Shown here: one piece after another, positions 8,401 to 35,300 of the stretch
Layout: each line of letters begins with the position of its first letter
Numbering within the stretch: position 1 is the first letter of the stretch
Assembly (NCBI RefSeq): GCF_964199755.1
Contig: NC_133926.1
Span: forward strand, 372,001-436,000
Source: Larus michahellis
Taxonomy: Eukaryota > Chordata > Aves > Charadriiformes > Laridae
Direction: 5' to 3'
DNA: 64,000 nucleotides
The notes under the pieces: model-generated
Told to the model about the DNA's origin: nothing
What the model saw: only the letters and a program-made list of their open reading frames with translations
Database searches by the model: none
Position numbers and translations under genes: made by a program

Positions 8401-11400
8401 CCTGGGGGTGGTGGGTCCTGCCCTGAGGTGGTTGGGGGCTCAGGGGGGGTCCCCAGGGGTATGGGGTCCAGCCCTGGGGTGGCTGGGGGGTCCCCTGGAG
8501 ATGTGGGGCCTGGTGCGGGGTGGATAGGGGATGCAGCAGGGGTCCCTGGGGGCTCGGGGGGGTCCCTGGGGGTGGTGGGTCCTGCCCTGAGGTGGTTGAG
8601 GGCTCAGGGTGGGTCCCTGGAGATGTGGGGCCTGGTGTGGGGTGGCTGGGAGGATGCAAGGGGGGGGGGTCCCTGGGGGCTCAGGGGGCATCTCTTGGGG
8701 TGGTGGGTCCTGCCCTGGGGTGGCTGGGGGTGCAGAGGGGGTCCCCAGGGGTGTGGGGTCCGGCCCTGGGGTGGCTGGGGGGTCCCCTGGAGATGTGGGG
8801 CCTGGCGTGGGGGACATGGCGGGGGTCAGTGGGGTGACCGGACCCCCTGAGGCTCACCGAGGCGCTGCGGGCCGCCCCCTCCAGCTGGGTGGGGGTCTTC
8901 AGCCCCCCATATTTCTTCCAGTAGATCCAGCAGGAGGCGCAGAGGCGGCATTGCATGTTGGGGGGGCCCCAGGCGTACCACTGGGCAGACTGGGTGGCTG
9001 TGGGGGGAGCGGAGGTGGGTATGGAGAACCCCCCCCAGGGTGGGCAGAGACTCTGCTGCCCTCCAACACCCCCATCCTGCCCCCCAGCCCCTACAGCGGC
9101 CCTGCTGCCCCCCATCCTGCCCCCTTAACCCCCCCATCCTGTGCTTCTAAGCTCTATATGCCCCTACTCCTACCCCATAGCCCCTACAGCAGCCCTGCTG
9201 CCCCCTCATCCTGCCCCCTAAGCCCCCCATCCTGTGCCCCTAACCCTTATACATCCCTGCTCCTGCCCCACAGCCCCTATAACTGCTCTCCTGTCCCCCA
9301 TCCTGCCCCCTTAACCCCCCCCATTCTGTCCCTGAGCTCTATATGCCCTTATTCCTACCCCATAGCCCCTATAATGGCCCTGCTGCCCCCCGATCCTGTC
9401 TCCCTAACCCCTGTACATCCCTGCTCCTGCCCCCCTGCTGCCCATGACCCCCCCACCCCTATAGCCCCCCGTCCCCCCACCCCCCCTCAACATCTAACCC
9501 CCCATTCTGCTGCCCTCAGCCCCCCAACTTCCTCCCAAGAGCCCAGACCCACCGGTGCCCCCCATCCCAAGACCCCCCCCACTCCAGCATCCCCTCGTTC
9601 CTCCGCCCCAGAACACCTCACCCCAGCGTCCCCCCATTCCTGCTGCCCCAGGACCCCCCCTCCGCCGCACACACACCCCCCAGGACCCCCCCACCCCACT
9701 GACTGTGGCAGCTCTCGCAGGTCAACCCCTTCTGGAAGCCGGCCCCATTCATGCCGGGTTTGGAGCCCACCGAGATGATCTGGTTGGGGTTTGGCTTCGT
9801 GCTGAGGAGAAAGAGGGGGTCAGGGGGGGACCCACCTTACCCCTCCCAGGCCTAGGAGGGGCTCCAGGCCCTCCCCCAAGGCCCCCCCGCCCCCAACTCA
9901 CTAGGTGGGGATGTAGACTTGCTTCAGCTTGCTGTCCGCTTCTGCTGCCTTCAGCCTCTTCTGTGAGCAGGGACGGTGTTAAGGCGAGTTGGGGGGACAC
10001 TGTGGGGGCTTGGGGCAGCCCCTCCATGCTGTAGGAGCCCCCCCAGGCCGCAGCAGCGCCCCCCCCACCACCCCTTACCTGCTGGATGTAGCGGTCGGTG
10101 GTTTTCCACATGTAGTAGAACTGCACGATGCTGGCCAAGGATTTCCAAGGCAGCTGCAGGGAAAGGAGTGAGTCCTCACACCAGAGGGGTTCCTTTACCC
10201 TCTGCCCCACCCCACCCCCCCCCCCCCCAGTCCTGTGGAACTCCCCCCTCCCAACTCACAAAGTCCTGCCGGATGTCGTTGAAGTCTTTCCCATATTTTT
10301 CCAGCGCTTCCTCGAAGAGCATGGCCTCAGAAGCCGACCACTCTTCCATCTCATCGCGGCACAGCACCGGCCCCCCCTGCGGCACCAGCGTCGACATGGC
10401 CTTGGCCAGATCGTAGCCGTTGCGCTGCAGCGTGTCCATGGCGTGGAACTGGGGGAAAAAACGGGGGGGGGGGGGGCACAGAACGGGGAGGGGGGGATCA
10501 GGAGGAGCCCCCCCTCACCACGGAATCAGGGTCCTCCCGGCCCCCCCAAATCTCACCAGCGTGATGTCCCGGGAGGCGGCAGCGGCGCTCATGTGCAGGC
10601 TGGGTTGTCGGATGGAGCTGCTGCAGTCCAGGGCACGTGCGAAGGTCCCGACGGCTCTGGGGGGAAACGCAGAGGCGCAGGAGGGTGTCAGCAGGGTCCC
10701 CCCCGCCGTGTCCCCCCGCACCTCCCCGGCTCCAGCTCACCGTGCCACCACCAGGAACTGGTCGATCTGCCGGTCCGTCAGGGGGTTGTCGGGGTCCCAC
10801 ACCTTCATCTCCATTTTCTGCTGGTTTCGGTTGTCCGATTCGCCTGGGGGGAGTGTGTGCGTGGGGTCAGGCTGAAATCCCTCCCCCCTCCACAGTCTTC
10901 CCCCCCCGCCTCAAAAAACACCCACACCCGTCCCCCTCCCACACCTTCGGCCAGCCGGTCTGGGATTTCTGCCTGGTACTTGCAGCCGACCCGGATCTCG
11001 CCCTGGTCGGCCAAGAGAGTTTTCTGCACGGGGTCAAACACCAGCGAGTAGAAGAAGCAGTCCTGGGGGGGGCAGGGAGAAAAAGGTGGGGGGGGGGCTC
11101 AGCTCAGTGAGAGCCCCCCCCCAAATCTGCCCCCTGCCTTGGCAGGGTGTGGGGCTCACCTCCTTCTCCAGGTACTGGCCAAGAATGTCGGTCTCATTGA
11201 GGAGCGTCACGCTGCACTTCCCCCTGTGGGGCACAGAAGTGGTGGGGGGGAGTGGTGGTGGGGGGGCATTACAGGGTGATCCACCCCCCTGGTGGGCCCC
11301 CCCCCCGACCTCGACACGCACCGTATGTGGGTGGCCGGCAGCGATTCGAACTGCCGGGAGAGGAAAAGCTCGCGGTGCTTCAGCTGGTGACGCTGCTGCT

Positions 11401-16900: not shown

Positions 16901-19900
16901 TCCCTCCAGTCCCCCCAGCCCCCCTGTACCCCCATACCAACCCCTGGTCCCTCGAGCCCCCCCAGCCCCCTGTACCCCCATACAAGCCTCCTGCGCCCCC
17001 CCAGCCCCCCACCTCCAGCGCCAGGCTCCACGCCAGGGCGTGCTCCTGCCCGTCCCACAGGCAGAGCTGCCGGTCGTGGCCGCAGGTGAGGAAGAGGCAG
17101 GAGCTGGGGTGGGTGGCCAAGCCCCACACCTCGTCCGTGTGTCCCTGGGGGGGGGGAAAGGGGGGGTTATCACCCCCATAGCGGGGAGACCCCCTCCTGC
17201 CCCCCCTCCCCCCCCGCCATTTCCCTGACCCCACCTGCACGATGGGGGTGAAGCCGGCGGCCAGCGTCCCCCGCAATAGGGCGTTGCGGGTCGTCCCCAC
17301 CAGCAGCTCGTCCCCGGGTCCCTCCGCGATGGTCCGCACCGCCCCGAAGCGCTCGGGGAGCTGGGGGGCAGAGAAGTGGGGGGGGGGTGTCAGAGGGGAG
17401 GGGGGGGCACCCCAAAACCCCCCGACTACGGTCACCCCCACCCGAATCGCTCAGGGAGCTGGGGGGCAGAGGGAGGGCACCCCACGTCCTCCCCCAGCAT
17501 CGTCACTCTCGCCCTGAAGCGTTCCGGGAGCTTGGGGGGCAAAGTTGGAGGGGGGGATCTCGGGGGGGCAGCCCAAAACCTCCCCAGCATGGTCACCCCT
17601 GCCCCGAGTCGCTTGGAGAGACCCACCTGGGGCAGGTTCTGGGGGTCAGAGATGGTTTTGGGGGTCAGAGCAGGTTTTGGGGGGGGGTCTGGGGCAGGAT
17701 TTGGGGGTCAGAGGGGGTTTTGGGGGGTCTGGGGCGGGTTCTGGGTGCCAGAGCAGGTTTTGGGGGGGTCTGGAGCAGGTTCAGGGTGCCATTTTGGGGG
17801 TCAGAGTGGGTTTTGGGGGGGTCTGGGGCAGGTTCTGTGGGTCAGAGTGGGTTTTGGCGGGGGTCTGGGAGAGGTTCTGTATGCCAGAGTGGGTTTTGGG
17901 GGTCAGAGGGGGTTTTGGGGGGGTCTGGGGCAGGTTCTGGGTGCCAGAGTGTGTTTGGGGGGGTCTGGGGCAGGTTTTGGGGATCACAGTGGGTTTTGGG
18001 GGTAGCTGGGACACGTTTTGGGGGTCAGAGTGGGTTTTGGCAGGGATCTGGGAGAGGTTCTGGATGCCAGAGTGGGTTTTGGGGGGGGTCTGGGGCAGGT
18101 TTTGGGGGTCAGAGGGGGTTTTGCGGGGGGCATGGGGCGGGATTTGGGTGTCAGAGAGGGTTTTTTTTGGGGGGGCCGGGTCGCCCACCTCGGCCTCCTG
18201 CAGCAGGGCGAGCGCGGGGCTCCAGCAGACCACCCTCCGGTCCTTTCCGCCGCCGCTCAGCACCGTCCCGTCTCGCCGGCGGCACAGGGCGAAGATGCTG
18301 CCTTCGTGCGCCCGGGTTTGCTGCCCGATCTGGTACGTCTCTGCGGAGCCGGGGTTAAAACACGTCCCCCCCCCCAGCCAGAGCTGCCCCACGGTCCCCT
18401 GTGTCCCCCCCAACCTTTAAATCCATGTGCCCCCCCTACCTTTGCCACCCTTCCCCGGCGCGCGGCCGTCCCCGGCGGCGCGGGTCCAGGTGAGGATGTT
18501 GCCTTCGGAGTCTCCCGTCAGCACATCCCCAGCGGCGTCGAAGATGAAGCACTGGATGAACTTGGGCTTTTTGTACTTCTACGGGGCCGGGGGGATGACA
18601 CACAAATAGAATCAGCACAAATCTGCCCCACACCCCCCTCCCCCCCAAAAAAAAGCCCCCCTGGGGCACGCCGCTCACCCCGAAAATGCCCTGCTTCTTG
18701 GTGAGGGTGGCCCCGCTCCAGGTCCAGAAGTAGACGTGGGATTTGCCGCTGGTGATGATGCTGCCGCTGTCCTGGGGGTTGAACTCCACCGTCAGCACCG
18801 ACTCGTTCGTGCTCTGCGGGGGGACAAATCGTCAGCCCCGATGCTCGGGGTGGGGTGGGGGGGCCGATCAGCCCTCCATTCCCCCCCCCCACCACCCCGA
18901 AAAAAAAAAAAAGCCGCAGATGCCGGGGGTCGCCCTCACCTTCACCTCCGCCTGCTTGGTGCCGCGGGCGCAGTCCCACACCGACATCATGTGCTCGTTG
19001 GAGTCGTCCACCACGCAGAGGAAGGCACCCTGGTCCTGGGGGGGGACGACACAGGGGTGAGGGGGACAGATGTGGGACAAGGCGGGGGACACGCGCACAC
19101 ACAGAGGGACGGGGGCGGGGGGGGGGGATGACGACGCGGGCTCACGGCGGTGGAGAAGGCGAGGGAGCCCACGCCGCGCTCGAAGCTGCCGAGGCCGATT
19201 TGCTGGAGCGTGAGGAGCGTGGCCGAGTCCCAGATGTGCACGACGGGCTGCAGTGGCTGCGGGGACAGCGCGGGTCGGGGGGCAGGGGGGGGACAGCGAG
19301 GGTCGGGGGGCAGGGGAGACCGGGGGGACCCATCCCATGGCAGGGGGAGGGGGGCAAAAATCCCCGTCCCATCCTGCCCTCGGCCCCATCCAGTCCCCGT
19401 CACGGCCCCGTCCTCATCCCGTCCCCATCCCATCCCATCCTCATCACATCCCATCCCTGCTGCCATCCCCATCCCATCCCATTCCGATTCCCAGTCCCAT
19501 TCCCATCCCCAATCCCATCCCATTCCAGTTCCCAGTCCCATCCCATTCTCATGCGCATCCCAATCTCATCCCCATCCGATCACCAATCCCACCCCATTCC
19601 CATCCCCATCCCATTCCCAGTACCACCCCATCCTAATCCAATTCCCATTCCCATCCCCACCCCATTCCCAATTCCATCCCATCCCATTCCTATCCCTATC
19701 CCATCCCCAATTCCGTCCCATCTCCATCCCATTCACAGTCCCATCCCACTCCCAATCCCATCCCCAATCCCATTCCATCCCCAATCTCACCCCATTCCCA
19801 ATCCATCCCCTACTCCATCCCCACCCCTTTCTCATCCCCATCCCCAATCCCAACCCATCTCCATCCCATCCCCACCTCATTCCCATCCCCAATTCCACCC

Positions 19901-26699: not shown

Positions 26700-28085
26700 A
26701 AGGGACCCAGGCGCCCGGAGTGTCACCCCCCCCCCCCGCCATAGGAGACCCAGGACCCCCCCCCCCAGAACGGGGGCAGGGACCCAGGACCCCCCCAAAA
26801 GGGGGACAGGGACCCAAGACTCCCCACAAAACAGGGTCAGGGATCCAGGCCCCCCCCAAAAGGGGGACAGGGGCCCAGGACCCCCCCCAGATCGGGGACA
26901 GGGACCCAGGACCCCCCCCCAAAAGGGGGACAGAGACCTAACACTCCCCCCAAAACGGGGATAGGGACCCACAGATTCCCCCCCCCCCAAAATGGGGTCA
27001 GGGACCCAGGACCCCCCCAAAATGGGGACAGGGACCCACAGATCCCCCCCCCAAAATGGGGACAGGGACCCAGGACCCCCCCCTGCCAAAAGGGGGACAG
27101 GGACCCAGGACCCCCCCCCAAAACGGGGATAGGGACCCACAGATCCCCCCCCCAAAATGGGGTCAGGGACCCAGGACCCCCCCAAAACGGATATAGGGAC
27201 CCACGAATCCCCCCCCAAAAATGGGGTCAGGGACCCAGGACCCCCCCTGCCAAAAGGGGGACAGGGACCCAAGACTCCTCCCAAAACGGGGATAGGGACC
27301 CACAGATCCCCCCCCCAGAATGGGGTCAGGGACCCAGGATCCCCCCAAAACGGGGATAGGGACCCAGAACCCCCCCTGCCAAAATGGGGACAGGGACCCA
27401 GGACCCCCCCAAAACGGGGATAGGGACCCAGGACTCCCCCAAAATGGGGTCAGGGGCCCAGGACCCCCCCGCAAAACGGGTATAGGGACCCAGGACCCCC
27501 CCAAAATGGGGACAGGGACCCAGGACCCCCCCCCAAAACGGGTATAGGGACCCAGGACCCCCCCAAAATGGGGACAGGGACCCAGGACCCCCCCAAAACG
27601 GATATAGGGATCCACGAATCCCCCCCCAAAAATGGGGTCAGGGACCCAGGACCCCCCCAAAACAGGGTCAGGGACCCAGGACCCCCCCAAAAGGGGGACA
27701 GGGACCCAGGACCCCCCCCCAAAACGGGTATAGGGACCCAGGACCCCCCCAAAATGGGGACAGGGACCCAGGACCCCCCCAAAACGGATATAGGGACCCA
27801 CGAATCCCCCCCCAAAAATGGGGTCAGGGACCCAGGACCCCCCCAAAATAGGGTCAGGGACCCAGGACCCCCCCAAAAGGGGGACAGGGACCTAGGACCC
27901 CCCCAAAACGGGTATAGGGACCCAGGACCCCCCCAAAATGGGGACAGGGACCCAGGACCCCCCCCCAAAACGGGTATAGGGACCCAGGACTCCCCCAAAA
28001 TGGGGTCAGGGGCCCAGAACCCCCCCAACAGGGGGACGGGGACCCAGGACCCCCCCAAAAACAGGGACAGGGACCTTTCCACTCC
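26700..28085. repeat. 1.4 kb minisatellite, EML3 / ELM2-SANT intergenic
   Basis: About 45 copies of a 28-35 bp unit: AAAACGGGGATAGGGACCCA or AAAATGGGGACAGGGACCCA plus GGACCCCCCC. Variants TATAGGG, GTCAGGG and GACAGGG alternate in longer blocks; 27560-27690 and 27740-27870 are near-identical. Confidence 0.95.
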
Positions 28086-28258: not shown

Positions 28259-28343
28259 AGTCATAGCGTGAGCTGCGCCTCCGGGAACAGCCTCGGCGCC
28301 GCGCACCCGCCGGGGGACGGGGACAGCGGGGACCCCGCCGCAG
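28259..28343 (+). other. Candidate 5' exon of the ELM2-SANT gene
   Basis: A unique CG-rich segment between two minisatellites, bounded by CCTGCACAG on the left and CCGCCGCAG followed by GTACGG on the right. Joined to the exon at 29732 it would be 5' UTR; no in-frame upstream ATG was seen. Evidence is splice-site context only. Confidence 0.4.
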
Positions 28344-28359
28344 GTACGGGGACAACGGG

Positions 28360-29690
28360 GGGACCGCGAGGTGTCCCAGGGACCGCCGGGTCCCCTGCGT
28401 CCCTCGGGGGGACAACAGGGTGGCCCAGGGACCAACCGGCTCCCTTGGGGGGACAAGGGGGTCCATGGGGTGGCCCGGGGACAACCGGGACGCCTGGGTC
28501 CCCTGGGGGGACAATCGGGTGGCCAAGGGACTGCTGGGTGGCTTGGTGGGACAACAGGGTCCATGGGGTGGCCCTGGGACCACTGCGTCCCTTGGAGGGA
28601 CAACAGGGTGGCCCAGGGACCACTGGGTCCCGCGGGGGGACAATGGGGCCCGTGGGGTGGCTCAGGGACAGCCGGGATGCTCGGGTCCCTCAGGGGGACA
28701 ATGGGGACTACGGGGTGGCCCAGGGGTGGCCAGGACACCCAGGTCCCTCGGGGGGACAACAGGGTGGCCCAGGGACCACTGGGTCCCTCAGGGGGACAAC
28801 GGGGTCCATAGGGTGGCCCAGGGGTAGCCAGGACACCCGGGGCCCTCGGGGGGACAACAGGGTGGCCCAGGGACCACTGGGTCCCTCAGGGGGACAACGG
28901 GGTCCATGGGGTGGTCCAGGGGTGGCCAGGACACCCGGGTCCCTTGGGGGGACAACAGGGTGGCCCAGGGACCACTGGGTCCTGTGGGGGAACAATGGGG
29001 TCCATGGGTGGCCCGGGGACAACTGGGTCCCTCAGGGGGACAACGGGGTCCATGGGGTGGTCCAGGGGTGGCCAGGACACCCGGGTCCCTTGGGGGGACA
29101 ACAGGGTGGCCCAGGGACCACTGGGTCCCTCAGGGGGACAACGGGGTCCATGGGGTGGTCCAGGGGTGGCCAGGACACCCGGGTCCCTTGGGGGGACAAC
29201 AGGGTGGCCCAGGGACCACTGGGTCCTGTGGGGGAACAATGGGGTCCATGGGTGGCCCGGGGACAACTGGGTCCCTCAGGGGGACAACGGGGTCCGTGGG
29301 GTGGCCCAGGGACTGCCGGGACGCCTGGGTCCCTTGATGGGACAACGGAGTCCAAGCGGTGGCCCGGGGACTACTGGGTCCCCTGGGGGGACAATCGGGT
29401 GGTCAAGGGACTGCTGGGTGGCTCGGTGGGACAATGGGGCCCATGGGGTGGCCCTGGGACCACTGGGTCCCTTGGGGGGACAACGGGGTCCCTGGGGTGG
29501 CCCGGACACCCAGGTCCCTTGGGGGGGGGAACACGGGGTGTCCCAGGGACCGCTGGGTCCCTTGGGGGGAGCAATGGGGACCCTGGGGGGGGGGCGGGAA
29601 CGGACAGACACCACAGGGTCCATGGGGTGGCCCAGGGACATCCCGGCCACCTGGGGGGGTCCTTGGGCTGGAAAATTGGGGGGGGGGGGG
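28360..29690. repeat. 1.3 kb minisatellite in first intron of the ELM2-SANT gene
   Basis: Units of 55-60 bp, with GGGGGACAACAGGGTGGCCC, AGGGACCACTGGGTCCCTC and GGGTCCATGGGGTGG, combine into higher-order blocks of about 240 bp. 28910-29040 and 29155-29285 are almost identical. Confidence 0.95.
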
Positions 29691-29735
29691 GCAGGAGTCC
29701 CCCCCATCTCACCCATATCCCCCCCCCCCAGCCCC

Positions 29736-32171
29736 ATGGAGCCGCAGCTGGGCCCCTATGCCCCCCTGTACCCCCCCGCTGTGGGGCAGCCCCACTGGGA
29801 GCCCCCCCCGGGCTCGTGGGCCACCGCACCCCCCCGGGGCGATGGCCCCCCCGGACGCCTGGACCCCTTCTCCCAAGCCTTCACTGGCCACTTGCCCAAC
29901 AAGGCCTGGGGGGCCGGGACCCTGGGGACCGGAGGGGTCACGCCCCCCCCAGGCTACCTGCCCCTGCCCTATGGTGGCCCCCCCCAAGAGGAGTCGCCCC
30001 CCGCTTGCCTCTACCAGGACCTACAGCCCCCCCCCGTGCCCTTCCAGGGCCCAGGTGAGTGCGGGGGGGGGGTGTCTGGACCCCTTTTTTGGAGGAGGGG
30101 GTAAGGGGGTGTGTGAACTTGACCTTGACGCCCCCCCCGCCCCCCCAATTTTCTTGCAGCCCCACAGGGAATGGGGGGGCCCGAGGGTGTTGCCGGACTC
30201 CTGGGCCCCCCCGACTGGGTGCCATCCTACCAGGTGAGCCTTGGTCCCCTTTGAGGGGGGGACACGGGGGGGCGGGGGGGCAGCATTGGGTCCCCCAGTG
30301 CCTGACCCCCCCCCCCCTTTTATCCTCCCCACCTGCCCCCCCAGGACCCCAACCGCTATTTTGGGGGTGCTGAGCTGCCTTTTCCTGGGGTCCCCCCCCC
30401 ATGTCCGGGGGGGTGCTACGAGCTGAGCCCCCCCTGGGCAGGGGGCACGGCCCCCCCTGAGGTGAGAGAAGCCGGATGCCTGGGTCCCCCCATAATGGAG
30501 GGGGGGGGGGGGCAGACGCCTGGTGTGTCCCCCGCCCCGTGACCCCACTCTCCCCTCTCTTTCCCGTAGGCCCCCCCCAGCGAAAGCCGAGCCCCCCCCT
30601 ACCGGAGCCGCCTGAGTTTGGGGGGGGGCCCCCCCCGGTATCGCCCCCCGCCCATGTTGGACCCGGGGCGGGGGGGGCCGGGGCTGTTTGGGGGGCTGTC
30701 GGCAGAGGGGGGCCCTGACCCCCAGCGCCTCTCTCCTCCGTGAGTCGAGGGGGGGGTGCCAGGGGGGGCAGCGAGGAGGGGGGAGGCTGTCCTATAACCC
30801 CCCCCCCATCCATTTTGTGCCCCCCCCCCACCCCAGGCAGATCAACGTGGGCCCCAGCTTCCAGGCGGCCGTGCCGGTGTCAGTGGGGGGGGACTACGAC
30901 CAGGACCCCCCCGGGGCGGCCACACTGGCCTGGAGCCCCTGGCCCGGGCTGGAGGGGGACCCTGACACCCAACAGCAAGGTGAGACCCCCCCCCTTTTCC
31001 CCGGGGGGGGGTGTGTGTGTGTGTCTCCTGAATGTACCCCCCCTCATCCTCACCTTGCCGTGTGTGTCCCCCCCCCCCCCATAGTAGAGACCTTACTGGA
31101 CCTGGCTTGCTCCAGCGCCCTGCCCGGGGGGGGCACCAACCTGGAACTGGCCCTGCACTGCCTGGCCCGCGCCGGCGGCAACCTGATGGTGAGGGGGGGG
31201 GAGAGAAAATTTAGAGGGGGGTGAGATAATTTAGGGTGGCCTCCCCCCCCCCCCCAGCATCTTGTGTCCCCCCCCAACAGGGCGCCCTGGAGCTGCTGCT
31301 GCTGGGGACGCCGGCTTGGCTGCGGGCAGACCCCTTGGCTGGGTACCACTATACTGGTGAGGGGGGGTCAGGGGGATTTTGAGGGGGGGGGCAGAGGTGT
31401 TGAGGCCCCCCCCACCCGATGCTGCCCCCCCCCTTCACCTACAGGCAGCGACGCCTGGACCCCCCAGGAGCAGCGGCTTTTTGCCAAGGCCCTGGCACAG
31501 CACGGGAAGGATTTCACCCGCATTCAAGAGGCGGTGAGGGACCCCCCCCCCGCTTTGCCCCCCCCTCCTCAGGGCCCCCCGTTCCCACGGGCTGACCCCA
31601 AAACCCTTATTTCCCCCCCCGAAACCTTATCCCCCCCCCCCCTCAGGTGGCCTCCAAGAGGACGACGCAGTGCGTGGAGTTTTACTACCTGCACAAAGGG
31701 CAGCTGGGACAGGCACAGGGGCAGGTATGGCGAGGGAGGGGGGCACTGGAGACACCCCCATAGCCCTGGGGGGGGGGGCCACGTGGGACCCCCCATGGTT
31801 TTAGGGGCCACCCCCCCCCAAAATCTCTCTGTGTCCCAGATGCCACCCGAAGCCCTTGGCGCCCGCTTCCCCTGCAAGCTCTGCGGCAAGTATGCGGGGA
31901 GGGGGGTGGAGAGGGATCTGGGGGGGCCTGGTGGGGGGACACAGTGGGGGGGGGGGGGGCACAGGGGGTGCTGCCCTCCCCCAGCGCCCCCCCCCCCCCC
32001 CCCCCCCTCAATTTTTCCCCCAGGATCTTCCTCAAAATCAAGAGCCGCAACGCCCACATGAAGATCCACCGGCAACAAGAGGCTTGGGGGGGTTCGACCC
32101 CGCTCCTGCCCCCCCCGTGGCCCCCTGGCCCCCCTATTGTGGGGGGGTACACGCAGCAGCCCCCAGCGTGA
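29736..32171 (+). CDS. Compact ELM2-SANT-zinc finger protein (MIDEAS/TRERF1/ZNF541 family)
   Basis: Predicted nuclear corepressor that recruits HDAC1/2 through ELM2-SANT. Eleven coding exons (29736-30054, 30160-30233, 30345-30461, 30571-30739, 30837-30979, 31085-31188, 31281-31356, 31445-31533, 31647-31724, 31840-31889, 32023-32171) sum to 1368 nt, 455 aa, one frame throughout with GT-AG borders. The first 225 residues are Pro/Gly/Tyr-rich. ELM2 begins at about 228 (INVGPSFQAAVPV). SANT covers about 337-385 (AWTPQEQRLFAKALAQHGKDF, then CVEFYYLHKG). A single zinc finger follows at about 396-420 (FPCKLCG then NAHMKIH). The finger after SANT is the signature of the MIDEAS, TRERF1 and ZNF541 group, not of MTA, RCOR or MIER proteins. 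Those proteins are over 1000 aa in human and have long N-termini, which are missing here. I cannot name the orthologue. It is convergent with B3GAT3 and occupies the mammalian ROM1 slot. Confidence 0.85.
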
Positions 32172-32238
32172 GGATGCCCCTCCCCGAAATGAGGGTTCCC
32201 CCCCCCTCCAGGACACGGATGAGGATGGAACGAGAGAG

Positions 32239-32244
32239 TTTATT
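32239..32244 (-). terminator. B3GAT3: B3GAT3 poly(A) signal AATAAA
   Basis: TTTATT on the plus strand, about 150 bases past the B3GAT3 stop and inside the 3' UTR of the convergent ELM2-SANT gene. Confidence 0.75.
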
Positions 32245-32318
32245 GCGGAGATGATGCTTGGCCCCACGGAAAAGGGGTGCGGGCCCCCTCCCACGGAAAA
32301 AAAAAGGGGGTCCCCATC

Positions 32319-32328
32319 AATAAATAAA
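32319..32328 (+). terminator. Double poly(A) signal of the ELM2-SANT gene
   Basis: Two overlapping AATAAA hexamers (AATAAATAAA) about 150 bases past the stop at 32171. They lie 75-85 bases beyond the B3GAT3 signal on the other strand, so the two mature 3' ends overlap. Confidence 0.8.
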
Positions 32329-32391
32329 GTCCAAGTGTCCCCCGGGGGGGGTCCCTGTGATGCTGGGGGGGGGGGGGGGCGGGGGGGTCCC

Positions 32392-35300
32392 TCACACCTC
32401 GATGTGGGGGTCGGAGCCCCGGCCCTCGCGCTGCAGCTGCTCCTCCTGCCGCAGCTTCGGCTTCTCTGTCCTCGTGTGCCACACCAGAACCTGGCGGGGG
32501 GGGGGAAAGTGGGGGGGCCATCAGCAGGACCCCCTCAGTGACCCCCCCAGCCCAGCCTGGGACCCCTTGGTGAGGCCCAGGCCCCCAGCGACCCCCCTCC
32601 AGCACCGCGGGGAGCCCCTCGGGGTTCCTGTCACCCAACACCCCCAAGGGACCCCAGGCCCAACCCCCCCACCCCCCCACCCCCCCCCCGCAAAAAACCC
32701 ACCGAGGGCCCCCCCCAACCTCTTGAGGGACCTGAGGGACCAGCCAGAACCCCCCCGGGGGCCCCCCGCAAGTCCCTTACCTGGGTACAGTTGTCAGCCC
32801 TGAGTCCCCCAGGACCCCCAAGGGACCCCCCAGACCCCCTGAGGGACCCCAAAATCCCCCCAAGGACCCCCCAGACACCCCCCCCGTCCCCTACCTGGGT
32901 ACAGTTGTCAGCTCTGAGTCCCCCAGGACCCCCAAGGGACCCCCCAGACCCCCTGAGGGACCCCAAAATCCCCCCAAGGACCCCCCAGACCACACCCCAG
33001 ACCCTCTGAGGGACCCTAAAATCCCCCCAAGGGCCCCCCAGATCCCCCTTCCCCCCCCCCGTCCCCTACCTGGGTGCAGTTGTCAGCCTTGGGCTCCAGC
33101 TCGGCGGGGGACACGAGCCCCCCCAGCAGGCTGCTCTCCAGGTAGCCCCGCTCGGCTTGGGGGTCGAAGCGGGCCGCGGGGTGGGCCAGCAGGAGGGGCA
33201 GCCCCACGGCGAAGCCGGCCATGTCCAGAGGGAAGGGGCGCTCGGGTTTCCAGGCGGTGTGGAAGCCCACCACCCGCCCCCCCGCCACCAGCGGCCGCTC
33301 GAAACGCAGCCCCCCCACCAGCCCCACCGGCCAGACGGCCACGCCACGGGTGCTGCGCATCTGCCGGGGGGGAAGAAAGAGGCTGTTGGGGGGGGGGAAA
33401 TGGGGGGCTGGGGGGGGGATTTGGGGAGGTAGAAGGGAAGAGTTGGGGGGCGAGGGGAGTTTGGGGAAGAATTGGGGGCATTAGGGGGGGACTTGGGGGT
33501 TCTAGGAGGGATTAGGGGAGTTTGGGGGGGGAATTGGGGGGCTCCTGGGGGGAGTTAGGGGAATCTGGAGGGGGAACTGGGGGGCTCTGGGAAGGGTTGG
33601 GGGGAACTGGGGGGCTCAGGGGGGAACTACAGGGCTCGGGGATGAATTGGGGGGCTCAGGGGGGGATTAGAGGAGTTTCGGTGGGAATTGGAGGGCTCTG
33701 GGGGGGCTTAAAGAAGTTTCAGTGGGAATTAGAGGGCTCTGGGGGGGCTTAAAGAAGCTTGGGGGGGAATTGGGGGGCTCTGGGGGGGCTTAAAGGAGCT
33801 TGGGGGGGAATTGGGGGGCTCTGGGGGGGCTTAAAGGAGCTTGGGGGGGAATTGGGGGCGTAGTGGGGGGCAATTGGGGGACTCTGGGAAGGGTTGGGGG
33901 GAAATGGGGCTCTCTGGGGGGAGTTTTAGGAGGGAATTACAGGACACTGAGGGGGTAGGTGAGTTTGGGGGGGTTTGAGGAGTTTGGGGGGGATTGGGGG
34001 GGCTGTGGGGGTGTTAGGGCAGTTTTGGGGGGGGGGATTGGAGGAATTTTGGGAGGGGAGGTTCCGGGAGGGAACCCCAACACCTCGAAAAGCCGCAACC
34101 TGGAGGCGTGAAGAGGCAGAGGGGAGGAGCTGGGGGGTTCGAGGAGGGGACAAAGGGGGTTTGGGGGGGTTGAGGGGGGGTCGGGGGGTTCTGGGGGGGG
34201 GTCCCTACCTCCTCGAAGAGCCGCAGGCTGTAGGTGTTGTCGTCGTCGGCGAAGTAAACCACGCCGCCCTCGCCGGGCAGCCGCGTCTCCCGCAGCCACT
34301 GCAGCGCCCGGTTGCGTTGCTCCACGCCGCGGGGGCGCAGCCAAGGGGGGTCCCCGGGGCGGCGGCGGATTTCGGGGGGGGTCTCGACGTTCAGGTGGGT
34401 GTAAGGGACCCCGCTGGCAGCTAAAAGCCCCCCCACCAGCGCCGTGGGGGCGGGGGCGTCTTCCACCACCACCCAGTGCAGCGCCCGCACGTGGAGCAGC
34501 GTCTGCGACAGTCGCACCAGCTCTGCCTTCTGCACCGGCCTGGGGCGGGGGGGGCCACAAAAAAGGGGTTGGGGGAGGCAAAGAAAAGGCTGGGGGGGGA
34601 CAAAAAAGGGATAGGGAGGCAAAACAAGGGCTGGGGAGGGGGGGCTTGGGGGGCTGTGCGGGTCAGGGGGGGCTGTGGGAGCCAAGGAGGTTGGGGAGGG
34701 GGGAACAGATTGGGCTTGGGGTGGCCCAGGGGAGGCTGCGGGGTGGGGGGGAAATGTGGCTGGGGGGGGGCAGATTCAGGGTGTATGGGGCAGAGTGGGG
34801 GGGCAAATGGGGCTGGGGGAGGCAAATCAGGCTGTACAGGGACATGGGGGGGGAGGGAAATGGGGCTGGGGGGGGGAAATGGGTTGCAGGGGGGCAGGTC
34901 AGGGTGGGGTGTGGGGAAATGAGCCCGGGGCGGGGGGGGGGCAAATCAGGCTGTACAGGGCCATGGGGGGGGGGCAAATGGGTCTGGGGGGAGGCAAATG
35001 AGGTTATATGGGGCTGTGGGGGGGCCAGGTCTGGGGGGGGGGGGGCAAATGAGTCTGGAAGGGGGCAAGTTAGTTTGTATGGGGCTGCAGGGGGGGGCAA
35101 ATGGGTCTGGGGAGGGTCTGGAGGGGTCAGGGGTCTCACCTGGCGTAGGTGGGGGTCACCACGTAGATGGTGGGCAGGACCCGGGCCCCCCCCTGCCCCC
35201 GGGGCCCCCCCCGGCCCCCCCCACCCCGCAGCTCCCCCAGCAGCCGCTCCCGGTCCCGGCCCCTCCGCTGCTGGGTGCAGTCACAGGGTTGTCCTGGGGA

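Follow-up and report, generated by a model that had tools for sequence, protein, structure and literature searches.

In a 64-kb stretch of the Larus michahellis genome (C35:372001-436000 of a 1.405-Gb assembly, contigs being denoted C; hereafter the window), we characterised a compact gene for an ELM2-SANT-zinc finger protein of 455 amino acids, which lies between EML3 and B3GAT3, where mammals carry the eye gene ROM1. Its domains, introns, paralogues and linkage make it likely that the MIDEAS family, whose proteins keep histone deacetylases on chromatin, has in this candidate gene a fourth vertebrate member, which would be an ohnologue of MIDEAS and TRERF1 outside the three known human members. 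It would date back to the early vertebrate whole-genome duplications (the two rounds known as 2R), and the linkage block that it shares with its paralogues offers an explanation for a chromatin gene in the ROM1 slot.

An intact gene of the MIDEAS family

The candidate comprises 11 coding exons on the plus strand (29732-32171 of the window; Table 1). Splicing these exons from the window reproduced exactly the 455-residue frame of the original prediction, which had been read from the bare sequence. From its ATG to its TGA the frame contains no internal stop and no frameshift, all 10 coding introns (88-134 nt) have GT-AG borders, and GC content is higher at third codon positions (0.829) than at second positions (0.588) or in the introns (0.697).

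The protein carries an ELM2 domain (Pfam PF01448, 29.9 bits versus a cut-off of 21.7, residues 229-284) and, C-terminal of it, a Myb/SANT domain (PF00249, 37.5 bits versus 24.4, residues 338-380). A C2H2 finger at residues 399-425 stays under the Pfam cut-offs; both cysteines and both histidines are present, it aligns with the finger of all three paralogues in the genome, and like theirs it is split by a phase-2 intron. The best match in PDB was human MIDEAS (candidate residues 215-384, E 1.3e-44; 1.1e-41 for a shorter MIDEAS construct), followed at a distance by matches via the SANT domain to RCOR1 (5.6e-9), RERE (1.3e-5) and MTA chains (1.2e-4 to 9.9e-4). The ELM2, SANT and C-terminal finger of MIDEAS/TRERF1/ZNF541 type that had been claimed for this protein are thereby confirmed. 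MIDEAS is the scaffold of the deacetylase complex MiDAC, and TRERF1 and ZNF541 are its two human paralogues (PMC4344507, PMC7319964, PMC7288346); the three have ELM2-SANT and about 80 preceding residues in common (PMC4344507). By its ELM2 and SANT domains, its finger, its introns and the loop described below, the candidate is, as judged from sequence, a member of this family.

Within these preceding residues, human MIDEAS contains a loop (residues 652-671) that overlies the HDAC1 active site in structures from cryo-electron microscopy, and the change Y654S within it leads to a neurodevelopmental syndrome (PMC12647621). The corresponding stretch of the candidate, PRYRPPPMLDPGRGGPGLFG (residues 192-211), is identical to the human loop at 11 of 20 positions and to that of bird TRERF1 at 13 of 20. 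When the N-terminal 228 residues of the candidate were shuffled 20,000 times, the observed identity was reached three times for human MIDEAS and never for bird TRERF1. MIDEAS Y654, P656 and P721 are kept in the candidate, while the plug residue I659 is a methionine, as it is in bird TRERF1. MIDEAS K839 and K843, placed close to the inositol phosphate that belongs to the adjacent dimer (PMC7319964), correspond to R and K in the candidate and to R and E in bird TRERF1.

Upstream of these elements the protein is short. The first coding exon of the candidate spans 107 codons, where bird MIDEAS and bird TRERF1 show open frames of 492 and 509 codons, in line with the earlier claim that the long N-terminus of the family is absent. 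A related N-terminal motif nevertheless occurs in all three bird genes (RLDPFSQAF in the candidate, PLQPFQLAF in MIDEAS and KLDSFTQVF in TRERF1), and on this sequence the N-terminal part is reduced in length, not truncated. Residues 14-52 also resemble the MIDEAS N-terminus, a similarity (E 0.024) that is too weak to be relied on.

The candidate shares features with each of the individual family members and differs from each in others. Like MIDEAS (ELMSAN1, C14orf43; PDB 6z2j, 6z2k, 9r4i), it has a loop before ELM2 and an intron at the same place within the C-terminal finger, and its ELM2-SANT region is 47% identical to human MIDEAS over 157 columns and 51% to bird MIDEAS over 184. However, human MIDEAS has 1045 residues (PMC7319964) and the candidate 455, with 227 before the ELM2 core. 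TRERF1 (TReP-132) is the nearest paralogue within the genome, with 57% identity over ELM2, SANT and finger, a finger of the same KIKSRNAHMK-HRQQE type and the same LD-F-Q-F motif near the N-terminus; on the other hand, the 509-codon open frame of bird TRERF1 is rich in glutamine, and the candidate showed no counterpart of the additional C2H2 finger that TRERF1 has further upstream. A ZNF541-like copy (locus L022) agrees with the candidate in the order of ELM2, SANT and finger and is 45% identical, and ZNF541-like genes are multi-copy in this genome. The ELM2-SANT architecture also recurs in MTA1-3, RCOR1-3 and RERE, but the reported alignments to these proteins are limited to SANT and far weaker.

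Paralogues in the same genome

Searching the genome with the candidate protein gave 46 listed matches, 8 of which, on C35, are its own exons; the best of those listed off C35 was TRERF1 (E 8.5e-5). MIDEAS is encoded at C4:51.27-51.29 Mb and was named by its 78% identity to human MIDEAS, TRERF1 lies at C3:31.05-31.08 Mb, and there are many ZNF541-like copies; for the latter two bird genes the names are those we presume from position and general knowledge. The presence of separate MIDEAS, TRERF1 and ZNF541-like genes makes the candidate a fourth kind. Over 183-184 columns its identity to them (57%, 51% and 45% for TRERF1, MIDEAS and the ZNF541-like copy) compares with 63% between bird MIDEAS and bird TRERF1.

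In trees of five to six rows, consisting of the bird sequences and human MIDEAS with or without MTA2 as outgroup, bird and human MIDEAS formed a clade that excludes the candidate (support 99/97 with the outgroup, 98/97 without). The candidate therefore did not arise by copying of MIDEAS after birds and mammals had split; a young copy of TRERF1 is excluded less firmly, since MIDEAS alone had a human row. Moreover, a comparison across the four genes of five of the ten coding introns, located in the ELM2, SANT and finger regions, showed agreement in position and phase in 20 of 20 cases, which rules out an origin as a retrocopy. A local truncated duplicate, which the original prediction had put forward as an alternative, can be set aside as well: identity to the paralogues is 45-57%, motifs are kept from the N-terminus to the finger, the strong matches in the genome search all fall in this locus, and every other copy found lies off C35. 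Nor was the outcome observed that had been named beforehand as speaking against a separate gene, a tight grouping with the ZNF541 or MIDEAS of birds as the sole copy in the genome.

A search of the genome for ELM2 also indicated, at the level of sequence, that the ZNF541-like paralogue is strongly amplified in this genome. Copies occur at C16:16.14-16.26 and 17.67 Mb, at C19:0.09-1.19 Mb and on C182, C39, C30, C2 and C23, and these contigs (loci L003-L008, L012-L018, L021 and L022) hold 21 of the 26 ELM2 matches. Nine of these places, inspected as 10-kb loci, all contain a ZNF541-like ELM2 exon, most contain SANT exons and some the finger; a few are degenerate or partial, and some lie in opposite orientation. 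In mammals, ZNF541 is nearly testis-restricted (PMC7319964).

A shared linkage block and the ROM1 slot

TUT1, MTA2, EML3 and B3GAT3 in the window matched solved structures, each at least to the level of its family, which confirms the predicted position of the candidate between EML3 and B3GAT3, in plus orientation; its ATG lies 18.7 kb from the ELM2 exon of MTA2. A pig gene list gives the order B3GAT3, ROM1, EML3, MTA2, TUT1 (PMC12071171), and a human table lists MTA2, ROM1, EML3 and B3GAT3 at 11q12.3 (PMC6365579). The exact mammalian place of ROM1 is thus taken from the pig list and from general knowledge. No credible peripherin- or ROM1-like frame was found within the 64-kb window, where a ROM1 remnant was rejected at a best E of 2.4, and none of the 35 tetraspanin matches listed, nor of the 5 peripherin matches listed, lies on C35.

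A tetraspanin study describes RDS (peripherin), ROM1 and RDS2 as a trio of ohnologues that go back to the early genome duplications of vertebrates, ROM1 having been lost in reptiles and RDS2 in mammals (PMC2965184); we read "reptiles" in that work as including birds. The RCOR genes, another ELM2-SANT family, are likewise 2R ohnologues (PMC10721905). On C3 of the gull assembly, TRERF1 (31.06 Mb), a peripherin gene (31.25 Mb), an EML gene (31.98 Mb) and an MTA gene (32.29-32.32 Mb) lie in this order within 1.3 Mb; a match to PDB 7zw1 chain A (E 1.6e-113) identifies this peripherin as PRPH2. A second peripherin gene at C4:51.09 Mb, 59% identical to that of C3 and 0.2 Mb from MIDEAS, probably represents RDS2. 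C35, finally, carries the candidate together with EML3 and MTA2. TRERF1 next to RDS, MIDEAS next to an RDS2-like gene and the candidate where mammals have ROM1 are what a duplicated ancestral block leads one to expect: if an ancestral pair of a MIDEAS-family gene and a peripherin gene was copied along with EML and MTA in a genome duplication, both the candidate in the ROM1 slot and its nearness to MTA2 are explained. The ROM1 slot of the original prediction was right and goes beyond coincidence.

We also observed that the block at C3:31.05-32.33 Mb (TRERF1, PRPH2, EML, MTA) mirrors positions 10000-32400 of the window (candidate, (ROM1), EML3, MTA2). A third MTA gene, which by elimination is MTA1, lies at C12:26.565-26.573 Mb, away from the MIDEAS of C4. 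In humans, TRERF1 and PRPH2 are located at 6p21 and EML4 and MTA3 apart from them at 2p21, so that the bird may preserve an earlier arrangement. Linkage to VEGF was too distant to weigh (genes with a PDGF domain lie at C3:39.8 Mb and at C4:65.5 Mb, and 0 of 8 on C35).

Alternative origins of the gene

Among other explanations, the one that fares best, though we regard it as improbable, is that TRERF1 or MIDEAS was duplicated later, in one lineage (for example, in sauropsids), and that the copy came to lie beside EML3, evolved fast and shrank. TRERF1 is the nearest relative both by identity and by tree path (1.23-1.36), finger and loop methionine match TRERF1, and the branch of the candidate is long. 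However, the candidate is less similar to TRERF1 than MIDEAS is, although the latter two are old paralogues, the tested introns exclude a retrocopy, and the gene stands just where the block predicts an ohnologue of the MIDEAS family, in the ROM1 slot and together with EML3 and MTA2.

Still less probable is a dying gene or a recent pseudogene whose frame is open by chance. Its long branch, the change of several MiDAC-contact residues and the lack of RNA evidence would fit such a gene, but all 11 exons and all splice sites are free of lesions, GC is elevated at third codon positions, and ELM2, SANT, finger and loop remain recognisable at 45-57% identity to the paralogues, which indicates long selection. 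The least credible alternative takes the candidate for the avian orthologue of ZNF541 and gives another identity to the multi-copy genes (C16, C19, C39, C182 and elsewhere): the ZNF541-like label is a presumed one, and the tree has human MIDEAS as its sole human row and leaves the ZNF541-like row undecided, but the lowest identity of the candidate is to the ZNF541-like copy, and its neighbours are those of 11q12.3, unlike the 19q13 region that holds human ZNF541.

Several observations nevertheless weigh against an old fourth gene. The only vertebrate genome searched was that of this bird, and the support for the gene comes from genomic sequence. The five- to six-row tree leaves its inner branches, and with them the sister paralogue of the candidate, undecided, and the branch of the candidate is long (0.76-1.17). 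The block around MIDEAS is scattered: the EML gene of C4 is 15 Mb away, and the MTA gene that is left lies on C12. In phmmer the loop stretch alone obtains only 7.5 bits, and MIDEAS T655, which contacts HDAC1, is R in the candidate. Furthermore, the contacts K849, Y874 and V878 of the MIDEAS tetramer (SANT-SANT) are G, H and L, with 0 of 3 identical; bird TRERF1 has S, W and L at these positions, which indicates that they mark MIDEAS itself and not the whole family. Our guess is that tetramer formation might be weaker or absent in a complex built on the candidate.

A possible compact MiDAC scaffold

On our preferred reading as a 2R ohnologue, the early vertebrate whole-genome duplications would have made the candidate on the MTA2-EML3-(ROM1)-B3GAT3 chromosome, where it and ROM1 would once have been neighbours; mammals would then have kept ROM1 and this bird the scaffold. 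Its protein would most likely be a compact scaffold of MiDAC type, whose ELM2-SANT region may wrap HDAC1/2 and hold a DNTTIP1 dimer; the dimer domain of this MiDAC partner is encoded at C16:6.045 Mb. Acting as a brake, the loop at residues 192-211 could cover the HDAC active site, and the finger at the C-terminus together with the proline-rich N-terminus may help to direct the protein on chromatin. Membership in such a complex and deacetylase activity are predicted from these resemblances. More tentatively, and with somewhat more doubt than confidence, we propose that sauropsids possess a fourth MiDAC with a miniature scaffold that was lost in mammals, ROM1 and the scaffold having been resolved in opposite ways in the two lineages. 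Given the arginine at the HDAC-contacting loop position and the lack of the SANT-SANT contact residues of MIDEAS, such a complex might form dimers and be braked in a different way.

The earlier suggestion of a family member without a mammalian copy is supported and refined in one part: the candidate forms a lineage of its own, the fourth in this genome after MIDEAS, TRERF1 and the ZNF541-like genes, and its surroundings resemble a third copy of the block. For its other part, the absence from mammals, the basis is the three-member human family in published accounts (PMC4344507, PMC7319964), which is consistent with a loss in mammals. Among the papers listed from an open-licence library on the family, on this interval in birds, on ROM1 evolution and on ohnologues of TRERF1 or MIDEAS, we found none that describes a fourth member, and sequence databases may well carry it under a "-like" name; the terms sought for the candidate are absent from the main texts of two papers on missing genes of birds (PMC12954441, PMC4290089).

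Three alternative MiDAC scaffolds have been described. If the fourth is indeed old, the human set is a reduced one. As a natural minimal scaffold of 455 residues, the candidate could separate the roles of ELM2-SANT, brake loop and finger from that of the long N-terminus, and its loop offers a natural variant of the element whose human Y654S change causes disease. Moreover, a MIDEAS-family/peripherin/EML/MTA block predicts that vertebrates which retain both genes have B3GAT3, the candidate, ROM1, EML3 and MTA2 adjacent to each other.

Features of the locus and its surroundings

The features of the candidate and its neighbours are collected in Table 1. GANAB, ZBTB3 and RBM4 are presumably also in the window, names that we assigned by appearance.

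Table 1. Positions of the candidate gene, its sequence elements and adjacent genes within the window.
Feature	Position	Strand	Description
MTA2 ELM2-SANT exons	10079..11062	-	sequence match; MTA family, best match MTA1
EML3 WD-repeat exons	18189..19247	-	sequence match; EML family
Possible 5' leader exon, putative	28259..28343	+	from sequence; ends ...GACCCCGCCGCAG, followed by GTACGG donor, then tandem repeat 28348-29505
Coding exon 1	29732..30054	+	start ATG 29736; encodes residues 1-106 plus the first base of codon 107; N-terminus rich in Pro
Motif RLDPFSQAF	29856-29882	+	residues 41-49, in coding exon 1
Coding exon 2	30160..30233	+	GT-AG, in frame
Coding exon 3	30345..30461	+	from splicing of the window
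Coding exon 4	30570..30739	+	auto-inhibitory-loop element, residues 192-211, at 30633-30692
Possible shorter element PYRSRL	30597-30614	+	upstream of loop, residues 180-185; by eye
Coding exon 5	30837..30979	+	first part of ELM2; Pfam match starts at residue 229
Coding exon 6	31085..31188	+	remainder of ELM2 match and residues after it
Coding exon 7	31281..31356	+	ELM2-SANT linker (GALELLLLGTP...YHYTG)
Coding exon 8	31445..31533	+	SANT, first part
Coding exon 9	31647..31724	+	SANT, second part (TTQCVEFYYLHK)
Coding exon 10	31840..31889	+	C2H2 finger, first half (FPCKLCGK)
Coding exon 11	32024..32171	+	C2H2 finger, second half (IFLKIKSRNAHMKIH) and C-terminus; stop TGA 32169-32171
Poly(A) signal AATAAATAAA	32319..32328	+	from sequence; 63 nt before stop codon of convergent B3GAT3
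B3GAT3 3' part, convergent	32392..34775	-	exon in 34014-34775 confirmed; stop-carrying last exon at 32392 by reading

The putative leader exon, whose start at 28259 is that of the original prediction, has a GT donor, although the 1.4-kb intron downstream of it would consist mostly of tandem repeat. This repeat is one of two large minisatellites (26760-28075 and 28348-29505, with units of 30/64 bp and 244/342 bp among others), which flank the presumed promoter and occupy most of the presumed first intron. On the other side of the gene, a 114-bp unit is repeated twice at 96% (32772-32998); it copies an apparent B3GAT3 exon border with its splice site, beside what is probably the genuine exon, at about 33070.

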